Shown here piece by piece: positions 12,405 through 51,778 of a stretch of DNA of 51,778 nucleotides. This DNA is from an uncultured bacterium (GTDB lineage: Bacteria; Cyanobacteriota; Vampirovibrionia; Gastranaerophilales; Gastranaerophilaceae), in the NCBI GenBank assembly GCA_902774905.1, contig CACYKF010000006.1, positions 1 through 51,778 of the forward strand, given 5' to 3'. A model generated the notes under the pieces. It was not told the origin of the DNA, ran no database searches, and was given only the letters and a program-made list of their open reading frames with translations. A program made the translations under genes and the position numbers. How positions within the stretch are numbered: the first letter of the stretch is position 1; every line of letters starts with the position of its first letter.

Positions 12405-12863
12405 ATGGGTAACATTATTCCTGTAAAATTGAGTGTATGCGTAAATGGTAAGTATGAACCAAGAACCATATATGCCGAAGAAGGTATGAGCATATCATTT
12501 GGCGGTAAATCATACAAATTCACAAAAGATGCAAAGGCAATCGTAATGGATGCAAAATATTATGCTGCATTGGGCGGAGTATCGCAAGAAGTAAGAGAAA
12601 AAGACCCCCACAATAAAGATTCTTATGTTTTAACTAATTCTGATGTGGCAAATGTTTATAACAACAGACATGACGGATTTGGTATATTACAAAACCATGT
12701 AAATAATGCTCAGGACAGATTAGCGACAGGTTCTAAATTGAAAACAAGCCCTGAGACCGGCAATGCAACTGATGTAAGTCCGCAGCAAAACGGATTGACT
12801 ATTCATTTAAGAGATAGTCATAATAAATCAACGGGTTCTATCAGTATATTTAAAGCGAAATAG
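12405..12863 (+). CDS. Hypothetical protein, 152 aa
   Basis: AAAGGA is well placed before ATG 12405. The soluble product has a beta-rich N-terminal half (KLSVCVNGKYEPRTIYAEE, ISFGGKSYKF) and a polar Asn/Ser/Gln-rich C-terminal half, without signal peptide or membrane helix. It is not a family I can name. The internal SFGGK resembles the N-terminal FG motif of other small proteins here, but at residue 31 this is probably coincidence. Its 3' end overlaps the convergent peptidase gene by 14 nt, and no terminator is visible between them. Confidence 0.65.
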   Translation: MGNIIPVKLSVCVNGKYEPRTIYAEEGMSISFGGKSYKFTKDAKAIVMDAKYYAALGGVSQEVREKDPHNKDSYVLTNSDVANVYNNRHDGFGILQNHVNNAQDRLATGSKLKTSPETGNATDVSPQQNGLTIHLRDSHNKSTGSISIFKAK

Positions 12864-13926
12864 AACTTAATGTATCAAAAATTTCAAATACCGGTTGTTC
12901 AAGTTGATCAATCGGTATTTTTTCGTCTAATTCGAGTGTAACAGTCGGGATATTGCGTTCAACCCCGCAATATGTACCGAAACTCCCCGGTGTTGGGTAG
13001 CCGATACTTGCCTCAACAGGATAACCGATAATATCTGATATTTTTTGTGCAATATCTTGTGCCGGCCCGTCATAATTAACTATTTTATATGGTGCATGCA
13101 AGGTTAAAATCATTTTCGGCTGATATTTTTCAATAATATCAATAACAAATTGAGTTTCAATTTCGCTGCCTGCTGATTTTCCCACATAATAATCATCAGG
13201 ATTATTTCCTGCGGCACTTGTATCTTCCCCCCAATTTGCGGTTGGAAAATTCCTGTTTAAATCAACCCCGTTTGCATTTGTTCTTGTGCCGTTTTGAAGC
13301 CCGTCAGGGTTTAAACAAGGGATGAATAACAGATTATCACTATTACCCTCCCCTTGAGGGAGGGTGGGAATTTCAAATTCCCGGGTGGGGGATATTTTAT
13401 CTTTTATATATTCTAAAACACTTTCGATATCTTTTGAAATATCATTATTAAATATTCGTATAACCTCAAAACCTGCATTTTTTAAAAATATATCTCTTTT
13501 TTTGTCATATTCTTTGTTATCTATATGTTGACTGCCATCAAGTTCAATTATAATTTTTGGATAAAAACAAGTAAAATCGGCAATATAAGGTCCTATAGGT
13601 TGTTGCCTTCTGAATTTTAAACCTAAAAATTGGCTTCTTCTTAAATATTGCCACAATATTTGTTCATTTGGAGTTGGGTTATTTCTTAATTCTTTAGATT
13701 TTTCCTTTGCGAACACACTATATTTATGTCCCCACCCCGAAATCACAGATTTCGACCCTCCCTCAAGGGGAGGGTATTCTCCTATTAAATATTTCTCAAT
13801 CAGGTATTTTCCCTGAGGCTCGTCACCATGAAAAACACCGATTATTAAAACATTATTTTTATTCGGTGTTCCGATAAGTTCTATTTTATTGCCAAGCTTT
13901 GTTGTTGCAGATTTTAATATTTTCAT
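12850..13926 (-). CDS. MpaA-like M14 peptidase interrupted in frame by a DUF559 nuclease cassette
   Basis: Residues 1-49 and about 195-358 form an M14 zinc carboxypeptidase-like domain close to murein peptide amidase MpaA. It has FHGDEPQG (zinc ligands H33, E36), CLNPDGLQNGTRTNANG then VDLNRNFP, a late zinc His in LTLHAPY, and a C-terminal LELDE with the catalytic Glu. Residues about 50-194 are foreign. They form a complete DUF559/Vsr-like domain (NPTPNEQILW, KFRRQQPIGPYIADF with D117, IIELDGSQH with E128/D130, a late IRIFNND), flanked by peptides translated from R3 palindromes (PPLEGGSKSVISGWG and PTREFEIPTLPQGEG). The frame stays open throughout, so a fusion protein is plausible. ATG 13926 is chosen over a GTG at 13932 that lies in a repeat. 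Confidence 0.85.
   Translation of the reverse strand: MKILKSATTKLGNKIELIGTPNKNNVLIIGVFHGDEPQGKYLIEKYLIGEYPPLEGGSKSVISGWGHKYSVFAKEKSKELRNNPTPNEQILWQYLRRSQFLGLKFRRQQPIGPYIADFTCFYPKIIIELDGSQHIDNKEYDKKRDIFLKNAGFEVIRIFNNDISKDIESVLEYIKDKISPTREFEIPTLPQGEGNSDNLLFIPCLNPDGLQNGTRTNANGVDLNRNFPTANWGEDTSAAGNNPDDYYVGKSAGSEIETQFVIDIIEKYQPKMILTLHAPYKIVNYDGPAQDIAQKISDIIGYPVEASIGYPTPGSFGTYCGVERNIPTVTLELDEKIPIDQLEQPVFEIFDTLSSISL
13344..13776 (-). mobile_element. DUF559 nuclease cassette with 22-bp terminal inverted repeats
   Basis: The 433-bp segment begins with TACCCTCCCCTTGAGG... (13344-13365). It ends with the exact reverse complement of those 22 bases (13755-13776). Each end is the outer half of an R3 palindrome unit (13344-13391 and 13730-13776, inverted to each other), and the DUF559 domain fills the middle. 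TA stands at both outer edges. The host M14 frame continues on either side. I infer a self-contained nuclease element; the insertion and transposition mechanism is unknown. Confidence 0.75.
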
Positions 13927-13973
13927 CCCCACCCCGAAATCGTAGATTTCGACCTTCCCTCAAGGGGAAGGTA
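13927..13973. repeat. Solo R3 palindrome between ftsY and the M14 gene
   Basis: This 47-bp unit, CCCCACCCCGAAATC...AAGGGGAAGGTA, fills the whole gap between the ftsY stop and the peptidase ATG. Compared with the copy at 13730 it has CTTCC/GGAAG where that has CCTCC/GGAGG, a compensatory change on both arms. Confidence 0.85.
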
Positions 13974-32840: not shown

Positions 32841-34069
32841 TTTGTATACTTTCTTCCGACAAGTTCATCAGGCAAAAATTGTTGTTCAACATCAGGCGCA
32901 TTGTGGGTATAGACATAACCTATCCCAAAACCGTAATTTTTAGCATCTTTATAGTGTGCATCTCTCAAATGCATTGGCGGCGGATAATCTTTTCCGCCTG
33001 CAATATCATTCAAAGCACTATCAATTGCCATAATTGTTTCATTTGATTTTTTTGCCCTTGCGACATAAATTACTGCCTGTGCAAGCGGTATTCTGCCTTC
33101 CGGTAAACCCAAAAGTTCTACTGCTTTATAGGCATTTACTGCAACATTGAGGGCATTAGGGTCGGCATTGCCGACATCTTCTGATGCGCAAACAATTAAT
33201 CGTCTTGCAATAAACCTTGGATCTTCTCCTGCGGTTATCATTTTGGCAAGGTAATAAATTGCAGCATCAGGGTCGCTTCCTCTGAGGCTTTTTTGAAATG
33301 CAGAAGCACAATCATAATGTTCTTGTTGCGAGTATCTTGTATTCCTTTGCTGACAAATTTCTTCTATTGTTTTAACAGATAAAAACCTTTTTCCGTCTTT
33401 TAAATCACTTGCAAAATAGGCATTTTCAACTATATTGAGCGCATATCTTGCATCCCCTCTTGCAAGGTTTATAATAAAATCCAAAACTCCGCTTTCGCAA
33501 TCCATTTGGGAATAAGTTTTTGCAAGATAACCAAACCCTTTTTTGATAATACTTGCCATACTTTCATCATCAATAGAATTTAGCCTTATAACCTGAACTC
33601 TTGATAAAAGCGCGGGAACAACCTGAAAAGACGGATTTTCGGTCGTTGAACCGATTAAAAACAGTGTTCCGTTTTCAAGATGTGGTAAAAGTGCATCCTG
33701 CTGAGTCTTTGAATAACGATGAATTTCGTCTATAAAAAGAATTGTTTTTTGTCCTGCCCTCAAACATTCTTTTGCTTTTTCTACTGCATCTTTAATATCT
33801 TTTACCCCTGAAGTTACGGCTGAAATTTCAATAAAATTTGCGTTTGTTTTAGTCGCAATTAGTCTTGCTAAAGTTGTTTTTCCGCACCCCGGAGTTCCCC
33901 AAAAAATCAGGGAAAATAATCTGTTTGTTTTTAGCAAATTTAACAGGGGGCTTTTGGGGGAAATAACATTACTCTGTCCTAAAAAATCTTCAATAGTTTT
34001 CGGGCGAAGTATCTCTGCAAGCGGTGTTTGCTTTGTTTGATTTTCAAGTTCCGTAAATAAGTTATTCAT
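32837..34069 (-). CDS. rarA: Replication-associated recombination protein A
   Basis: This AAA+ ATPase of the clamp-loader-like MgsA/WRNIP1 family acts at stalled replication forks. At 410 aa it has LRPKTIEDFLGQ, Walker A GTPGCGKTT (58-66), Walker B ILFIDEIHR, the sensor region GSTTENPSF, ARGDARYALN and the C-terminal tetramerisation domain with DYPPPMHLRDAHYKDAKNYG-like signature (PPPMHLRDA). It is slightly short of the usual 430-450 aa but appears complete. It faces the sugar-binding protein gene across a 39-nt gap that contains TATAAT for the plus strand and half an R5 element. Confidence 0.95.
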   Translation of the reverse strand: MNNLFTELENQTKQTPLAEILRPKTIEDFLGQSNVISPKSPLLNLLKTNRLFSLIFWGTPGCGKTTLARLIATKTNANFIEISAVTSGVKDIKDAVEKAKECLRAGQKTILFIDEIHRYSKTQQDALLPHLENGTLFLIGSTTENPSFQVVPALLSRVQVIRLNSIDDESMASIIKKGFGYLAKTYSQMDCESGVLDFIINLARGDARYALNIVENAYFASDLKDGKRFLSVKTIEEICQQRNTRYSQQEHYDCASAFQKSLRGSDPDAAIYYLAKMITAGEDPRFIARRLIVCASEDVGNADPNALNVAVNAYKAVELLGLPEGRIPLAQAVIYVARAKKSNETIMAIDSALNDIAGGKDYPPPMHLRDAHYKDAKNYGFGIGYVYTHNAPDVEQQFLPDELVGRKYTN

Positions 34070-34118: not shown

Positions 34119-35371
34119 GTCCTTTACAAATTATAATAATTACAATTATTTTAATAATCACAGGAATATTTTTTATCTTCAAAAAAACACCCTCAAATAA
34201 TGAAGTAGTTTTTTGGACTTTGCAGATGAGTGATTTTGCGCCGTACATAAACGGGGTTATAAGTGATTTTGAAAAAGAAAATCCTGATATAAAAATTAAA
34301 TGGGTAGATGTTCCGTTCAGCGAAGGCGAAAAGCGCACTCTTGCCTCTGTTTTGAGTGATAATCCGCCGGATTTGGTTAATCTTAACCCTGATTTTAGTG
34401 CAACTTTGGCTCATAAAGGCGCACTTTGGGAGATACAAAAAAGTGAACTTATACAATTTAATGATGAAATTCTGAAATCACTTGAAACAGACGGAAAAAT
34501 GTTTTCAATCCCTTGGTATGCAACAAGTGCGATAACAATTTATAACAAAGATTTAATTTCATCTGTTCCTAAAACTTATGGGCAGTTAGCAGAAATTGCT
34601 CCGCAAATTCGTAAAAAAGGAGCATATATCACTCTGCCAAACATCACAGAAAACGACACAATGCTAAAAATTTTAAATAAATACGACTGTACCCTCTCTA
34701 ATGGAGATGGAGCCAATGTTAGTGAGCAAAGCAAACTTTACATTGGCGGGAGAGGGTTAATTTCTGTTAGTTGTAAAAAAGTATTCGCTTTATTCAAAGA
34801 CCTCTATTCAAAAGATTTGATACCGAAAGAAACTGTTACAATGACATTATCGGAAGCGTTGGAAAAATATATGTCAGAAAATATTGCACTAATCGGTGCA
34901 GGAGCAAATTTTTTGAATATGATAAAAGAAAATGCGCCGCAGACTTATTCAAAGACTGATGTGGCAGAGCAAATAAAAGGGGATTTGGGACAAAATGATT
35001 TTTCTTTAATGAATTTTGTAATTCCACTAAGAGCAAAACACAAAGATGAAGCACTTAAATTTGCGTTGTTTTTGACAAACGATAAAAACCAGTTAGAACT
35101 TGCGAAACTTACTAATGTCCTTGCGGTAAATAAAGAAACTTTGAATAATGATTTTTACAAAAAATATGACAAAAACGATCTTATGGCAAAGGCAAGAGTA
35201 ATCAGCGCAGGTCAGTTAAACAAACTTCAGCCTGTATTCAGAACGCAAAAAAATCAAAAAGAAATCAATAATCTTGTAAATAACGCAGTACAAAATATAT
35301 TGCTAAATAAAGGTGAAACAGAAAAAATATTAAAAGAACTTGATAATAATATAAAATTATTAGAAAAATAA
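34109..35371 (+). CDS. Extracellular solute-binding protein (sugar ABC type) with in-frame palindrome
   Basis: This 420-aa family 1 binding protein has an N-terminal membrane segment (about 6-24) instead of a lipobox, then EVVFWTLQMSDFAPYI, a DVPFSEGEKRTLASVLSDNPPDL hinge region (the PPDL motif) and IPWYATSAITIYNKD, as in sugar ABC systems. Residues about 195-217 (CTLSNGDGANVSEQSK..IGGRG) are translated from a palindrome (34690-34758) and look foreign to the family. The permease at 20804 may be its partner, though they are unlinked. The start codon lies in an R5 repeat without a good ribosome site, so the true N-terminus is uncertain. Confidence 0.85.
   Translation: MVNRPLQIIIITIILIITGIFFIFKKTPSNNEVVFWTLQMSDFAPYINGVISDFEKENPDIKIKWVDVPFSEGEKRTLASVLSDNPPDLVNLNPDFSATLAHKGALWEIQKSELIQFNDEILKSLETDGKMFSIPWYATSAITIYNKDLISSVPKTYGQLAEIAPQIRKKGAYITLPNITENDTMLKILNKYDCTLSNGDGANVSEQSKLYIGGRGLISVSCKKVFALFKDLYSKDLIPKETVTMTLSEALEKYMSENIALIGAGANFLNMIKENAPQTYSKTDVAEQIKGDLGQNDFSLMNFVIPLRAKHKDEALKFALFLTNDKNQLELAKLTNVLAVNKETLNNDFYKKYDKNDLMAKARVISAGQLNKLQPVFRTQKNQKEINNLVNNAVQNILLNKGETEKILKELDNNIKLLEK
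34690..34758 (+). repeat. Palindromic element in frame inside the binding-protein gene
   Basis: The outer arms ACCCTCTC (34691-34698) / GAGAGGGT (34750-34757) and inner arms GCCAATGT (34712-34719) / ACATTGGC (34740-34747) form a nested palindrome of 69 bp. It keeps the frame open for 23 codons. The TACCCTC...GAGGGT outline is that of the R3 repeats. Confidence 0.65.
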
Positions 35372-36886: not shown

Positions 36887-37897
36887 ATGAAAGCATTAGT
36901 ATTTGATAAAGAATTAAAATTCGTTGAGAATTACGAAAAACCTGTGCCAAAACAAGGTGAGGCACTTGTGCGTGTTAATTTGGCAGGAATTTGTAATACC
37001 GATTATGAAATAACAAAAGGTTATATGGGTTATGAAGGAATTTTAGGTCACGAAGCAGTCGGAGTTGTGGAAGATGTAAATATTGCCCCCACCCCGAAAT
37101 CAGAGATTTCGACCCTCCCGCAAGGGGAGGGTAAACATCCGTTAATTGGCAAGAGGGTTGTGCCTGAAATCAGTTACGGGTGTAAAGACCCGGATTGTGA
37201 GTGGTGTGCAAAGAAAAACTACCGCCATTGTCCGAATAGGCACACTCTCGGTATTTGGAGAAAAGACGGTGTTTTTGCACAATATTTCACTATGCCGGTT
37301 GAAGTTCTGTTTGAAGTTCCTGATAATGTCCCCGATACTCAGGCTGTTTTTGTTGAACCTTTGGCGGCAGCATTGGAAATAAATGAACAATTGCATATAA
37401 AACCGATGGATAAGGTTGTGGTGCTTGGTGACGGAAAGTTAGGCTTAATTACGGCACTTGCGCTAAACGCTCAAAATATTAATGTGACATTAGTCGGAAA
37501 ACACCAAAATAAACTTGATATTGCAAAAGCACAAGGGGTAAAAACCGCACTTTTGAGTGATTTTAAAACAGAAAAAATCTATGATGTCGTAGTTGAAGCA
37601 ACGGGAAGTGTAAACGGATTTGAAACCTCACTTGCCCTGACCAAACCAAGAGGAACACTCGTTCTAAAAAGTACGGTTGCGACAGGGAAAGAACTGAATC
37701 TTGCTCCGATAGTTATTGATGAAATTACTGTTTTAGGCTCCCGCTGCGGTCAGTTTCCGCCGGCTTTGAGGATGTTAGAATCCGGAAAAGTTGATTTCTC
37801 TCCGCTAATTTCAGGGATTTATTCAATAGATGAAGCCCAAAAAGCGTTTGAAAAGAATAAAGAAAAAGACACTCTCAAAGTGCTTTTGAAGATGTAA
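36887..37897 (+). CDS. Zinc-dependent MDR alcohol/threonine dehydrogenase-like protein with in-frame palindrome
   Basis: This 336-aa medium-chain dehydrogenase has the catalytic zinc set (C36 in GICNTD, H55-E56 in GHEAVG), the structural zinc cysteines C99, C104, C107 and C115, and a Rossmann fold (VVVLGDGKLGLIT). Residues 68-82 (PTPKSEISTLPQGEG) are the translation of a 47-bp R3 palindrome (37087-37133) placed in the loop before HPLIGKRV. The same peptide frame appears in the M14/DUF559 gene. The loop is a surface turn where family lengths vary, so function may survive. AGAAGGAG precedes the ATG. The substrate is unknown. Confidence 0.9.
   Translation: MKALVFDKELKFVENYEKPVPKQGEALVRVNLAGICNTDYEITKGYMGYEGILGHEAVGVVEDVNIAPTPKSEISTLPQGEGKHPLIGKRVVPEISYGCKDPDCEWCAKKNYRHCPNRHTLGIWRKDGVFAQYFTMPVEVLFEVPDNVPDTQAVFVEPLAAALEINEQLHIKPMDKVVVLGDGKLGLITALALNAQNINVTLVGKHQNKLDIAKAQGVKTALLSDFKTEKIYDVVVEATGSVNGFETSLALTKPRGTLVLKSTVATGKELNLAPIVIDEITVLGSRCGQFPPALRMLESGKVDFSPLISGIYSIDEAQKAFEKNKEKDTLKVLLKM
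37087..37133 (+). repeat. R3 palindrome inside the dehydrogenase coding region
   Basis: CCCCACCCCGAAATC-AGA-GATTTCG followed by ACCCTCCC-GCAA-GGGGAGGGTA: two perfect hairpins, the same 47-bp unit as at 13730 and 13927. It contains no stop in the host frame. Confidence 0.88.
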
Positions 37898-37965: not shown

Positions 37966-38035
37966 TACCCTCTACCTTTGGGAGAGGGTAGAAAATCAAA
38001 ACGAATAATGAGTTTTAGATTTTCGGGTGAGGGTA
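37966..38035. repeat. R3-type repeat, inverted orientation
   Basis: TACCCTCTACC-TTT-GGGAGAGGGTA, then GAAAATC / GATTTTC arms and GGGTGAGGGTA. It has the two-hairpin R3 outline reversed, with an extra 22 nt in the second loop. Confidence 0.6.
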
Positions 38036-47591: not shown

Positions 47592-47745
47592 AACTCTTGT
47601 CTCCTTATTAAACTTCATCTTTAAACTTCAACTCTTATATAAAGTAAAATTGTTTTGCAAAATTTCACAAAATTCGTATTTATTAATAATTCGTAATATA
47701 CATAGATTATATTATCTGAATATCTTGCTAAGATATTCTTATTAT

Positions 47746-47837
47746 GTTCATTCTTTCTCTTTTTTGCGATGAAAAGAGAAAGAATGAACCAAGAAAGAGA
47801 AAAAACGCTATTTCATTGCAATGCCTGACGGCATTGC
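47746..47837 (-). repeat. R1 repeat, minus orientation, with terminal hairpin
   Basis: The long hairpin spans 47746-47789. It is followed, as at the right window edge, by CAAGAAAGAGAAAA, CGCTATTTCA and the hairpin GCAATGCC-TGAC-GGCATTGC (47818-47837). The usual CTACCT flank before the hairpin is missing. Confidence 0.85.
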
Positions 47838-47910: not shown

Positions 47911-48112
47911 GATTTTCACCCTCACCCGCAGTTGTACGGGGCTCATAAATTCGCCTACCACTGCTCCCTCTCCCAAGGGGAGAGGGGTGGGGTGAGGGGT
48001 AAAATGCGCGCCGTAGTTTTAGGCGCGCTAAGTGATTTTTGCCGACAGGCAAAAACACATATCACTGCGTAAGCAGTCTTATACCGCCAAAGGCGGTATT
48101 GTAATCGGCGAA

Positions 48113-48235
48113 GTTTTCTTTTCTTTGGTTCATTTCTTTTCTTTTGCCTCGCAAACAAAAGAAAAGAAATGAACAGGTAGAAAGTGTTAATCTCTCAATT
48201 AATACCGATAATATAATTTATGTATAGTTATAATT
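48113..48235 (+). repeat. R1 repeat, plus orientation, covarying stem
   Basis: The stem GTTCATTTCTTTTCTTTTG (48128-48146) pairs perfectly with 48156-48174, although several bases differ from the other copies. The AGGTAGAAA and AATCTCTCAATTA tail is conserved. Confidence 0.85.
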
Positions 48236-51647: not shown

Positions 51648-51778
51648 CATATTATCGGTAGTAATTGAGAGATTGAAACTTTCTACCTGTTCATTCTTTC
51701 TCTTTTCTTGCGATGAAAAGAGAAAGAATGAACCAAGAAAGAGAAAATACGCTATTTCACTGCAATGCCTGACGGCAT
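51648..51778 (-). repeat. R1 interspersed repeat, right window edge
   Basis: This minus-oriented copy has ATTATCGGTAGTAATTGAG, CTTTCTACCT, the long hairpin (51689-51733), GCTATTTCACTGCAATGCC and a truncated TGACGGCAT end. It is nearly identical to the reverse complement of 1-118. The window stops inside the terminal small hairpin. Confidence 0.9.

Follow-up and report, generated by a model that had tools for sequence, protein, structure and literature searches.

Holder et al. (2015; PMC4666352) described an intrastrand triplex motif, TM_ECO, with the plan 5'-CCCTCNCCC N3-6 GGGNGAGGG N3 GGGNGAGGG-3'. Triplex repeats of this type occur in more than 260 genomes and are associated with genome rearrangement; their origin was left unclear. 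No mobility functions were found near them, and in MG1655 they are always intergenic (PMC4666352). The ITxF search used in that survey limited loops to 1-6 nt (PMC4666352), so that copies with a long second loop would have been invisible to it.

Other described systems share some of these properties. The Rickettsia palindromic elements (RPE) are palindromic repeats that lie in frame in unrelated genes, where the added peptide is tolerated; by their description they differ from the repeats considered here in length and lineage, and neither triplex arms nor a nuclease unit are described for them (PMC10969869). GTAG/CGTC REP sequences and their RAYT genes are also comparable, being short dispersed palindromes, some of them intragenic, with a cognate nuclease gene flanked by repeats (PMC3733652; PMC3116915). 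In the present family, in contrast, the GTAG/CGTC tag is absent from the foot of the hairpin, the bases beside the core vary (TA, CA, TT, AG and others), and the flanked nuclease is DUF559, of the PD-(D/E)XK type, rather than Y1/HUH. DUF559 is referred to as Vsr-like (PMC12907096). It matches the PDB entry 3HRL and, distantly (E 0.01), 3R3P, a Vsr-like homing endonuclease annotated as "Mobile intron protein". Both DUF559 and 3R3P are small single-domain nucleases in a mobile setting, but 3R3P is intron-borne, whereas the nuclease gene here is flanked by hairpin repeats.

The locus described below lies in the window, by which we mean the whole 51,778-nt stretch of Gastranaerophilales DNA that was analysed. 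It resembles TM_ECO in having three arms in the same order and with nearly the same sequence (CCCTCNCCC / GGGNGAGGG / GGGNGAGGG), and in being one of many dispersed copies without strand preference, some of them in inverted pairs. A C-rich stem, a G-rich stem and a second G-rich stem of the TM_ECO kind (9 nt, one mismatch allowed) are present in the copy of a sister species, G015 (CCCTCTCC-AAT-GGAGAGGG...GGGAGAGGG); in the window copy stem B has decayed. The differences are that the second loop, 3 nt in TM_ECO, is here a variable hairpin, that TM_ECO is intergenic in MG1655 whereas some of these repeats lie in frame in a solute-binding protein (SBP) gene and about ten others, that the host clade is Gastranaerophilales, and that a link to DUF559 is unreported for TM_ECO. 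The triplex in the window repeat is a prediction from sequence.

A triplex-type insertion in a solute-binding protein gene

The host gene encodes an ABC-type sugar-binding protein, the fold matches of which are oligosaccharide-binding proteins (top match Synechococcus 6wpm, E 1.7e-26). Features of the locus and of related elements in the window are collected in Table 1. The original prediction of a 69-bp palindrome in frame within this gene was borne out. Its outer arms are ACCCTCTC (34691-34698) and GAGAGGGT (34750-34757), its inner arms GCCAATGT (34712-34719) and ACATTGGC (34740-34747), and the same pattern of G-arm, core and G-arm recurs throughout the genome. The description of the encoded peptide (TLSNGDGANVSEQSKLYIGGRGL) as low-complexity Gly/Ser/Asn was loosely worded but acceptable. 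A first hairpin, formed by stems A and B, had been overlooked; it is decayed in the window copy (CCCTCTCT-AAT-GGAGATGG) and perfect, with a stem of 8 bp, in G015, where the insert has the less decayed form GTACCCTCTCCAATGGAGAGGGAGCCAATGTTAGTGAGCAAAGCGAACTTTACATTGGCGGGAGAGGGTTAAG. The second loop of the window copy is a 37-nt hairpin, and in the sister copy the core has a folding z of -4.7 relative to base-shuffled controls.

Table 1. Positions of the repeat in the SBP gene, its parts and related elements, numbered along the window.
Feature	Position	Strand	Basis
Host gene, ABC-type sugar/solute-binding protein (SBP_bac_8), 420 aa	34109..35371	+	ORF, Pfam PF13416 E 4.9e-28, fold match
Inserted triplex-motif (TM) element with loop-2 hairpin, in-frame residues 195-217	34690..34758	+	presence/absence comparison, family pattern
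Stem A, C-rich arm CCCTCTCT (CCCTCTCC in G015)	34692..34699	+	sequence
Stem B, G-rich arm GGAGATGG (GGAGAGGG in G015), partner of stem A, decayed in the window copy	34703..34710	+	sequence
Core hairpin (variable), GCCAATGT...ACATTGGC; G.A mismatches in tandem (G015: TGAGC-AAA-GCGAA)	34712..34747	+	folds, family covariation
Stem C, third strand GGGAGAGGG plus T	34748..34757	+	near-invariant in family
360-aa ORF, M14-type carboxypeptidase gene with the whole TM-DUF559-TM unit in frame	12850..13932	-	ORF; Pfam DUF559 76-180, Peptidase_M14 201-287
TM-type end of composite element	13344..13391	+	sequence
DUF559 (PF04480) Vsr-like nuclease domain of composite	13393..13698	-	Pfam E 1.4e-36
Second, inverted TM-type end of composite	13730..13775	-	sequence
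In-frame relative within the ADH gene (36887-37897); short-core GGGG variant	37086..37132	-	sequence
Full-length intergenic family copy (core GAAAATC...GATTTTC)	37966..38034	+	sequence
Back-to-back pair of family copies, intergenic	47918..47998	.	sequence

Comparison with relatives shows that the palindrome is a true insertion, carried by three related rumen Gastranaerophilales species. Among 30 loci from the genome itself (G000) and members of its genus, residues 195-217 are present in G000 and G015 alone. When 80 records of further relatives were added, the insert was found in RUG13741 (which is G015) and RUG12313 and was missing from the other 78, as the original prediction of an insertion would have it. 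The compared stretch of the protein has 52 residues in carriers, compared to 27-35 in the other records in which it could be aligned. The spread of 27-35 residues among orthologues would be expected if a native loop had grown in place, but the DNA of the insert is that of a repeat family of which dozens of copies are dispersed, and growth in place is extremely improbable.

The history of the insert appears to differ from that of its host gene. Synonymous divergence (dS) among the three carriers is 0.06-0.13 in the insert, a rough figure from few sites, compared to 0.46-1.07 in the remainder of the SBP gene. In the gene tree, some forks of which are weakly supported, every carrier pairs with a non-carrier (G002, RUG13924 or RUG11206). 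RUG12313 also shows a local peak of identity to the other carriers over the insert, 92-93% compared to 78-84% on either side. To judge from the low dS of the insert, the conflict with the gene tree and the identity peak, the insert allele probably crossed between species in a short tract. A second tract of high identity between RUG12313 (L094) and G000/G015, also a sign of interspecies recombination, lies in an MgsA-like gene at 33464-33704 of the window.

In the AlphaFold2 model of the protein (mean pLDDT 87.1), the sole segment below 50 comprises residues 198-213, between helices 184-190 and 220-234; the insert is thus predicted to add a disordered loop. Cysteines are found on both sides of it, and a cysteine pair is also present in the corresponding loop of some insert-free relatives (L101, L102, L117).

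A repeat family with a variable core hairpin

The SBP copy and those at 37966 and 37086 have a common plan: a C-rich arm, a G-rich arm, a variable core hairpin and a second G-rich arm. The original prediction had treated the SBP palindrome as a second family, distinct from its "R3" repeats. R3-like copies have the same three-part frame and differ in the core hairpin alone, which is variable throughout the family; since the frame is common to both, the two-family reading was rejected.

The genome of the window contains 29-30 strict copies of the G-arm, core, G-arm pattern and no match to the reversed control pattern, so that chance does not account for it. For GGGWGAGGG such a reversal makes no fair control, since GGGAGAGGG reads the same in mirror image. 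Exact CCCTCTC-N-GAGAGGG hairpins number 20. The strict pattern is present in 15 of 36 members of the genus and in none of the 23 genomes from outside the genus in the same set. A scan of the phylum for the three-arm pattern gave 53 matches among 386 genomes, and 45 of these belong to one family (nine of the genus and 36 others). The eight from elsewhere in the phylum mostly resemble overlapping simple triplex arrays. The second loop is mostly 33-45 nt long, and 12-16 nt in a few copies; stem C is near-invariant. Intergenic copies have no strand preference relative to neighbouring genes, the neighbour being on the same strand in 8/18 cases upstream and 8/18 downstream. The core subfamily of the SBP copy also occurs in G007 (GCCGTTGT/ACAACGGC) and G020 (GCCAGCGT/ACGCTGGC); the core string TTAGTGAGCRWAGCGAAC alone was of no use as a family probe.

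Other repeats occur in the same genome. A palindrome family with arms GTTCATTCTTTCTCTTTTC/GAAAAGAGAAAGAATGAAC is found in the window at 31-75, 47737-47798, 48128-48174 and 51689-51733, so that copies lie near both ends of the contig. Two RAYT-like genes (L173 2224-2787 and L174 2589-3188) are accompanied by further REP types (GTAGTGTGGGC... and GTAAGTTGGGC...), and repeats lie inside the RAYT reading frames themselves.

The cores are strongly folded, with a mean z of -4.5 and 70 of 73 below -2. The outer eight positions are 90.9% Watson-Crick paired in 124 unique cores from 33 genomes, which are not independent events, many copies being descended from others, compared to 60.7% when the 3' arms were re-dealt among copies (maximum 64.5% in 2000 re-deals). 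The register of each core was picked for maximal pairing among a few offsets, which biases the first figure slightly toward pairing. Ends were anchored by hand before pairs were counted, since MAFFT had placed full elements with 1-nt and 2-nt spacers out of register. Fifty arm-pair types were distinguished among the 124 cores, and symmetric GA/GA mismatches next to a pair are present in 65% of cores, compared to 2% after shuffling of the unpaired bases. In these sequences the arms change and yet remain paired, and markedly different arms, each still with its partner, are hard to explain by descent alone.

In-frame copies in other genes

The original prediction that coding regions of this genome may receive palindromes was supported: family copies lie in frame in about eleven genes. 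Besides the SBP gene these are the ADH gene in the window, folC-like, thiL-like and proC genes, a PD-(D/E)XK nuclease gene, and UvrD-like helicase, YfiH-like, L-aspartate-oxidase-like, NFACT-like and YmdB-like genes; five of these names come from Pfam and the rest from reading of the sequences. The folC-like gene (L174 1223-2596) also has an N-terminal extension of tandem GTAAGTTGGGG repeats (YVGVETPTYDNVETPTYD...) beside its in-frame triplex-type copy.

Filled and empty sites were compared, in draft metagenome assemblies, for the SBP, ADH, proC and PD-(D/E)XK genes. The net gain in proC is 42 nt (14 codons) for an element of 45 nt, and in the PD-(D/E)XK gene 63 nt (21 codons) for one of about 69 nt. 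The gain is thus smaller than the element, and a small amount of target sequence was lost. The target-site duplication expected of a MITE moved by a DDE transposase was not found at either of these two genes. At one and the same codon of the ADH gene, G000/G007 have a triplex-type repeat (window 37086-37132) and G015/G016/G014 an unrelated palindrome, GTCATTCTGAG...CTCAGAATGAC (L177, L179, L181). The target-site analysis of ADH is ambiguous because two repeat families used the site; some loops accept repeats more than once. The original suggestion that several palindrome families enter genes therefore holds for the ADH codon of the sister species, but not for the SBP copy, which is no separate family.

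DUF559 genes flanked by repeats

Pairs of family copies in inverted orientation, separated by about 450-550 nt, are a recurrent arrangement. Ten of ten such pairs that were checked, picked in Gastranaerophilales by their spacing, enclose a DUF559-like ORF; Pfam PF04480 was confirmed at seven of the inverted-pair loci and in the window gene (E 1e-34 to 1e-40). In the window, the whole TM-DUF559-TM unit is in frame within an M14 ORF, and a nuclease domain is therefore predicted inside a peptidase. A third, GGGG-type triplex-like repeat lies at the start of this ORF (window 13926-13973).

So that repeats had no part in the choice, a further 21 DUF559 loci, on plasmids, were gathered by protein homology alone, from Cyanobacteriota, Deinococcota, Alpha- and Gammaproteobacteria, several of them from related species; 232 ORFs from seven of the same plasmid records served as controls. 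At 19 of the 21 loci a pyrimidine/purine hairpin lies no more than about 280 bp away on one side or both, compared to 18 of the 232 control ORFs; hairpins stand on both sides at 13 loci, compared to no control ORF (Fisher about 1e-16 in each case). The cyanobacterial loci L321 and L324 failed the hairpin test, and C-rich/G-rich repeats are visible there by eye. At the E. coli DUF559 gene (L322, L328) the hairpins are on one side only. Some loci have long matched terminal inverted repeats, 56 nt with 98% identity in one case and 114 nt with 96% in another. The presence of DUF559 units flanked by repeat ends in numerous unrelated bacteria points to a possible mobile element; a full-text literature search for DUF559, judged mainly by title and abstract, gave no link to such repeats and no published description of the element.

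The 56-nt repeats are those of L326 (Deinococcus psychrotolerans, 395-889), where they surround DUF559 and contain GTGAGTGAGCAAAGCGAAT, which closely resembles the SBP core (TAGTGAGCAAAGCGAAC in G015). The flanking repeats in two sphingomonads (L330, L331) and in Shinella (L319) consist of a C-arm, a G-arm, a short hairpin and a G-arm, with for example ACCGGCGAAGCCGGT between arms; the core hairpin is therefore not confined to Gastranaerophilales.

How the repeats may spread

On balance, we are inclined to regard the SBP insert as a solo, probably non-autonomous TM repeat with a variable loop-2 hairpin, belonging to a family the full form of which would be about 0.5 kb long, with inverted repeats flanking DUF559, and would be copied by nuclease-driven break repair. 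The DUF559 nuclease would make or process breaks at the hairpin ends or at target sites, and repair would then copy the whole unit or a single end into the break, much as with homing elements; no target-site duplication would arise. Genic copies would survive only where the frame is kept and the loop is tolerant, as may be the case in the SBP, with a loop between two helices and a cysteine on either side. We infer both the mobilising enzyme and the copying route. A break-and-repair route fits better than cut-and-paste transposition because target duplications are lacking, target losses are small and the SBP allele spread in a short tract. A broader proposal, about as likely as not, is that DUF559 nucleases mobilise a multi-phylum family of elements with intrastrand-triplex hairpin ends, of which the triplex repeats known in hundreds of genomes, including the SBP copy, would be solo ends; the hypervariable, always self-paired hairpin with tandem G.A mismatches in Gastranaerophilales may be the recognised structure.

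The repeats might instead spread without DUF559, the folded single strand promoting template switching or gene conversion in replication and the gene being a passenger, or a separate selfish gene favouring repeat-rich sites. Triplex motifs have been tied to genome instability (Holder et al.; PMC4666352), the SBP insert apparently moved between species by short-tract recombination, and DUF559 units in this genome are fewer than single repeats. Against the DUF559 reading stand also the one-sided hairpins in E. coli and the two cyanobacterial loci that failed the hairpin test, and the gene could often ride as a passenger where repeats are dense. The two-sided flanking at the plasmid loci argues against this explanation, and the matched long terminal repeats together with the in-frame TM-DUF559-TM unit point to one element rather than a neighbourhood; we consider spread without DUF559 rather unlikely. 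Mobilisation in trans by RAYT (Y1/TnpA-REP) transposases, as for REP sequences, was tested and downgraded, and is now improbable. RAYT-like PF01797 genes are present in 8 of 11 repeat-bearing genomes, compared to none of 12 repeat-free ones (G000-G022, two strong IS200-like matches left out), and the lack of target duplication is expected of Y1 enzymes, but both RAYT genes of this genome adjoin other repeats rather than the SBP type, the conserved GTAG tag is absent from the family, and G002, with its 15 strict copies, lacks any PF01797 match.

Selection on structure could be reflected in the strong covariation of the cores and the low dS of the insert, and the element might then be kept for a role in RNA, as a terminator or riboregulator, or for a benefit that the extra peptide brings to the protein. 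The RNA role was downgraded because strand preference is lacking; stem B has decayed in the window copy, the insert is predicted to be disordered, and sister species do without it, so that retention of this kind is highly improbable. On the preferred explanation, copying by a DUF559 nuclease, that enzyme would be a concrete candidate for the mobility function missing near triplex repeats, and a single small enzyme and a single oligonucleotide would suffice to put the question to the test. A possible role would also emerge for DUF559, which is widespread and which Pfam continues to list as of "unknown function". Within this genome, the repeats show that new loops in housekeeping proteins can arise from a palindromic repeat family in bacteria other than Rickettsia.
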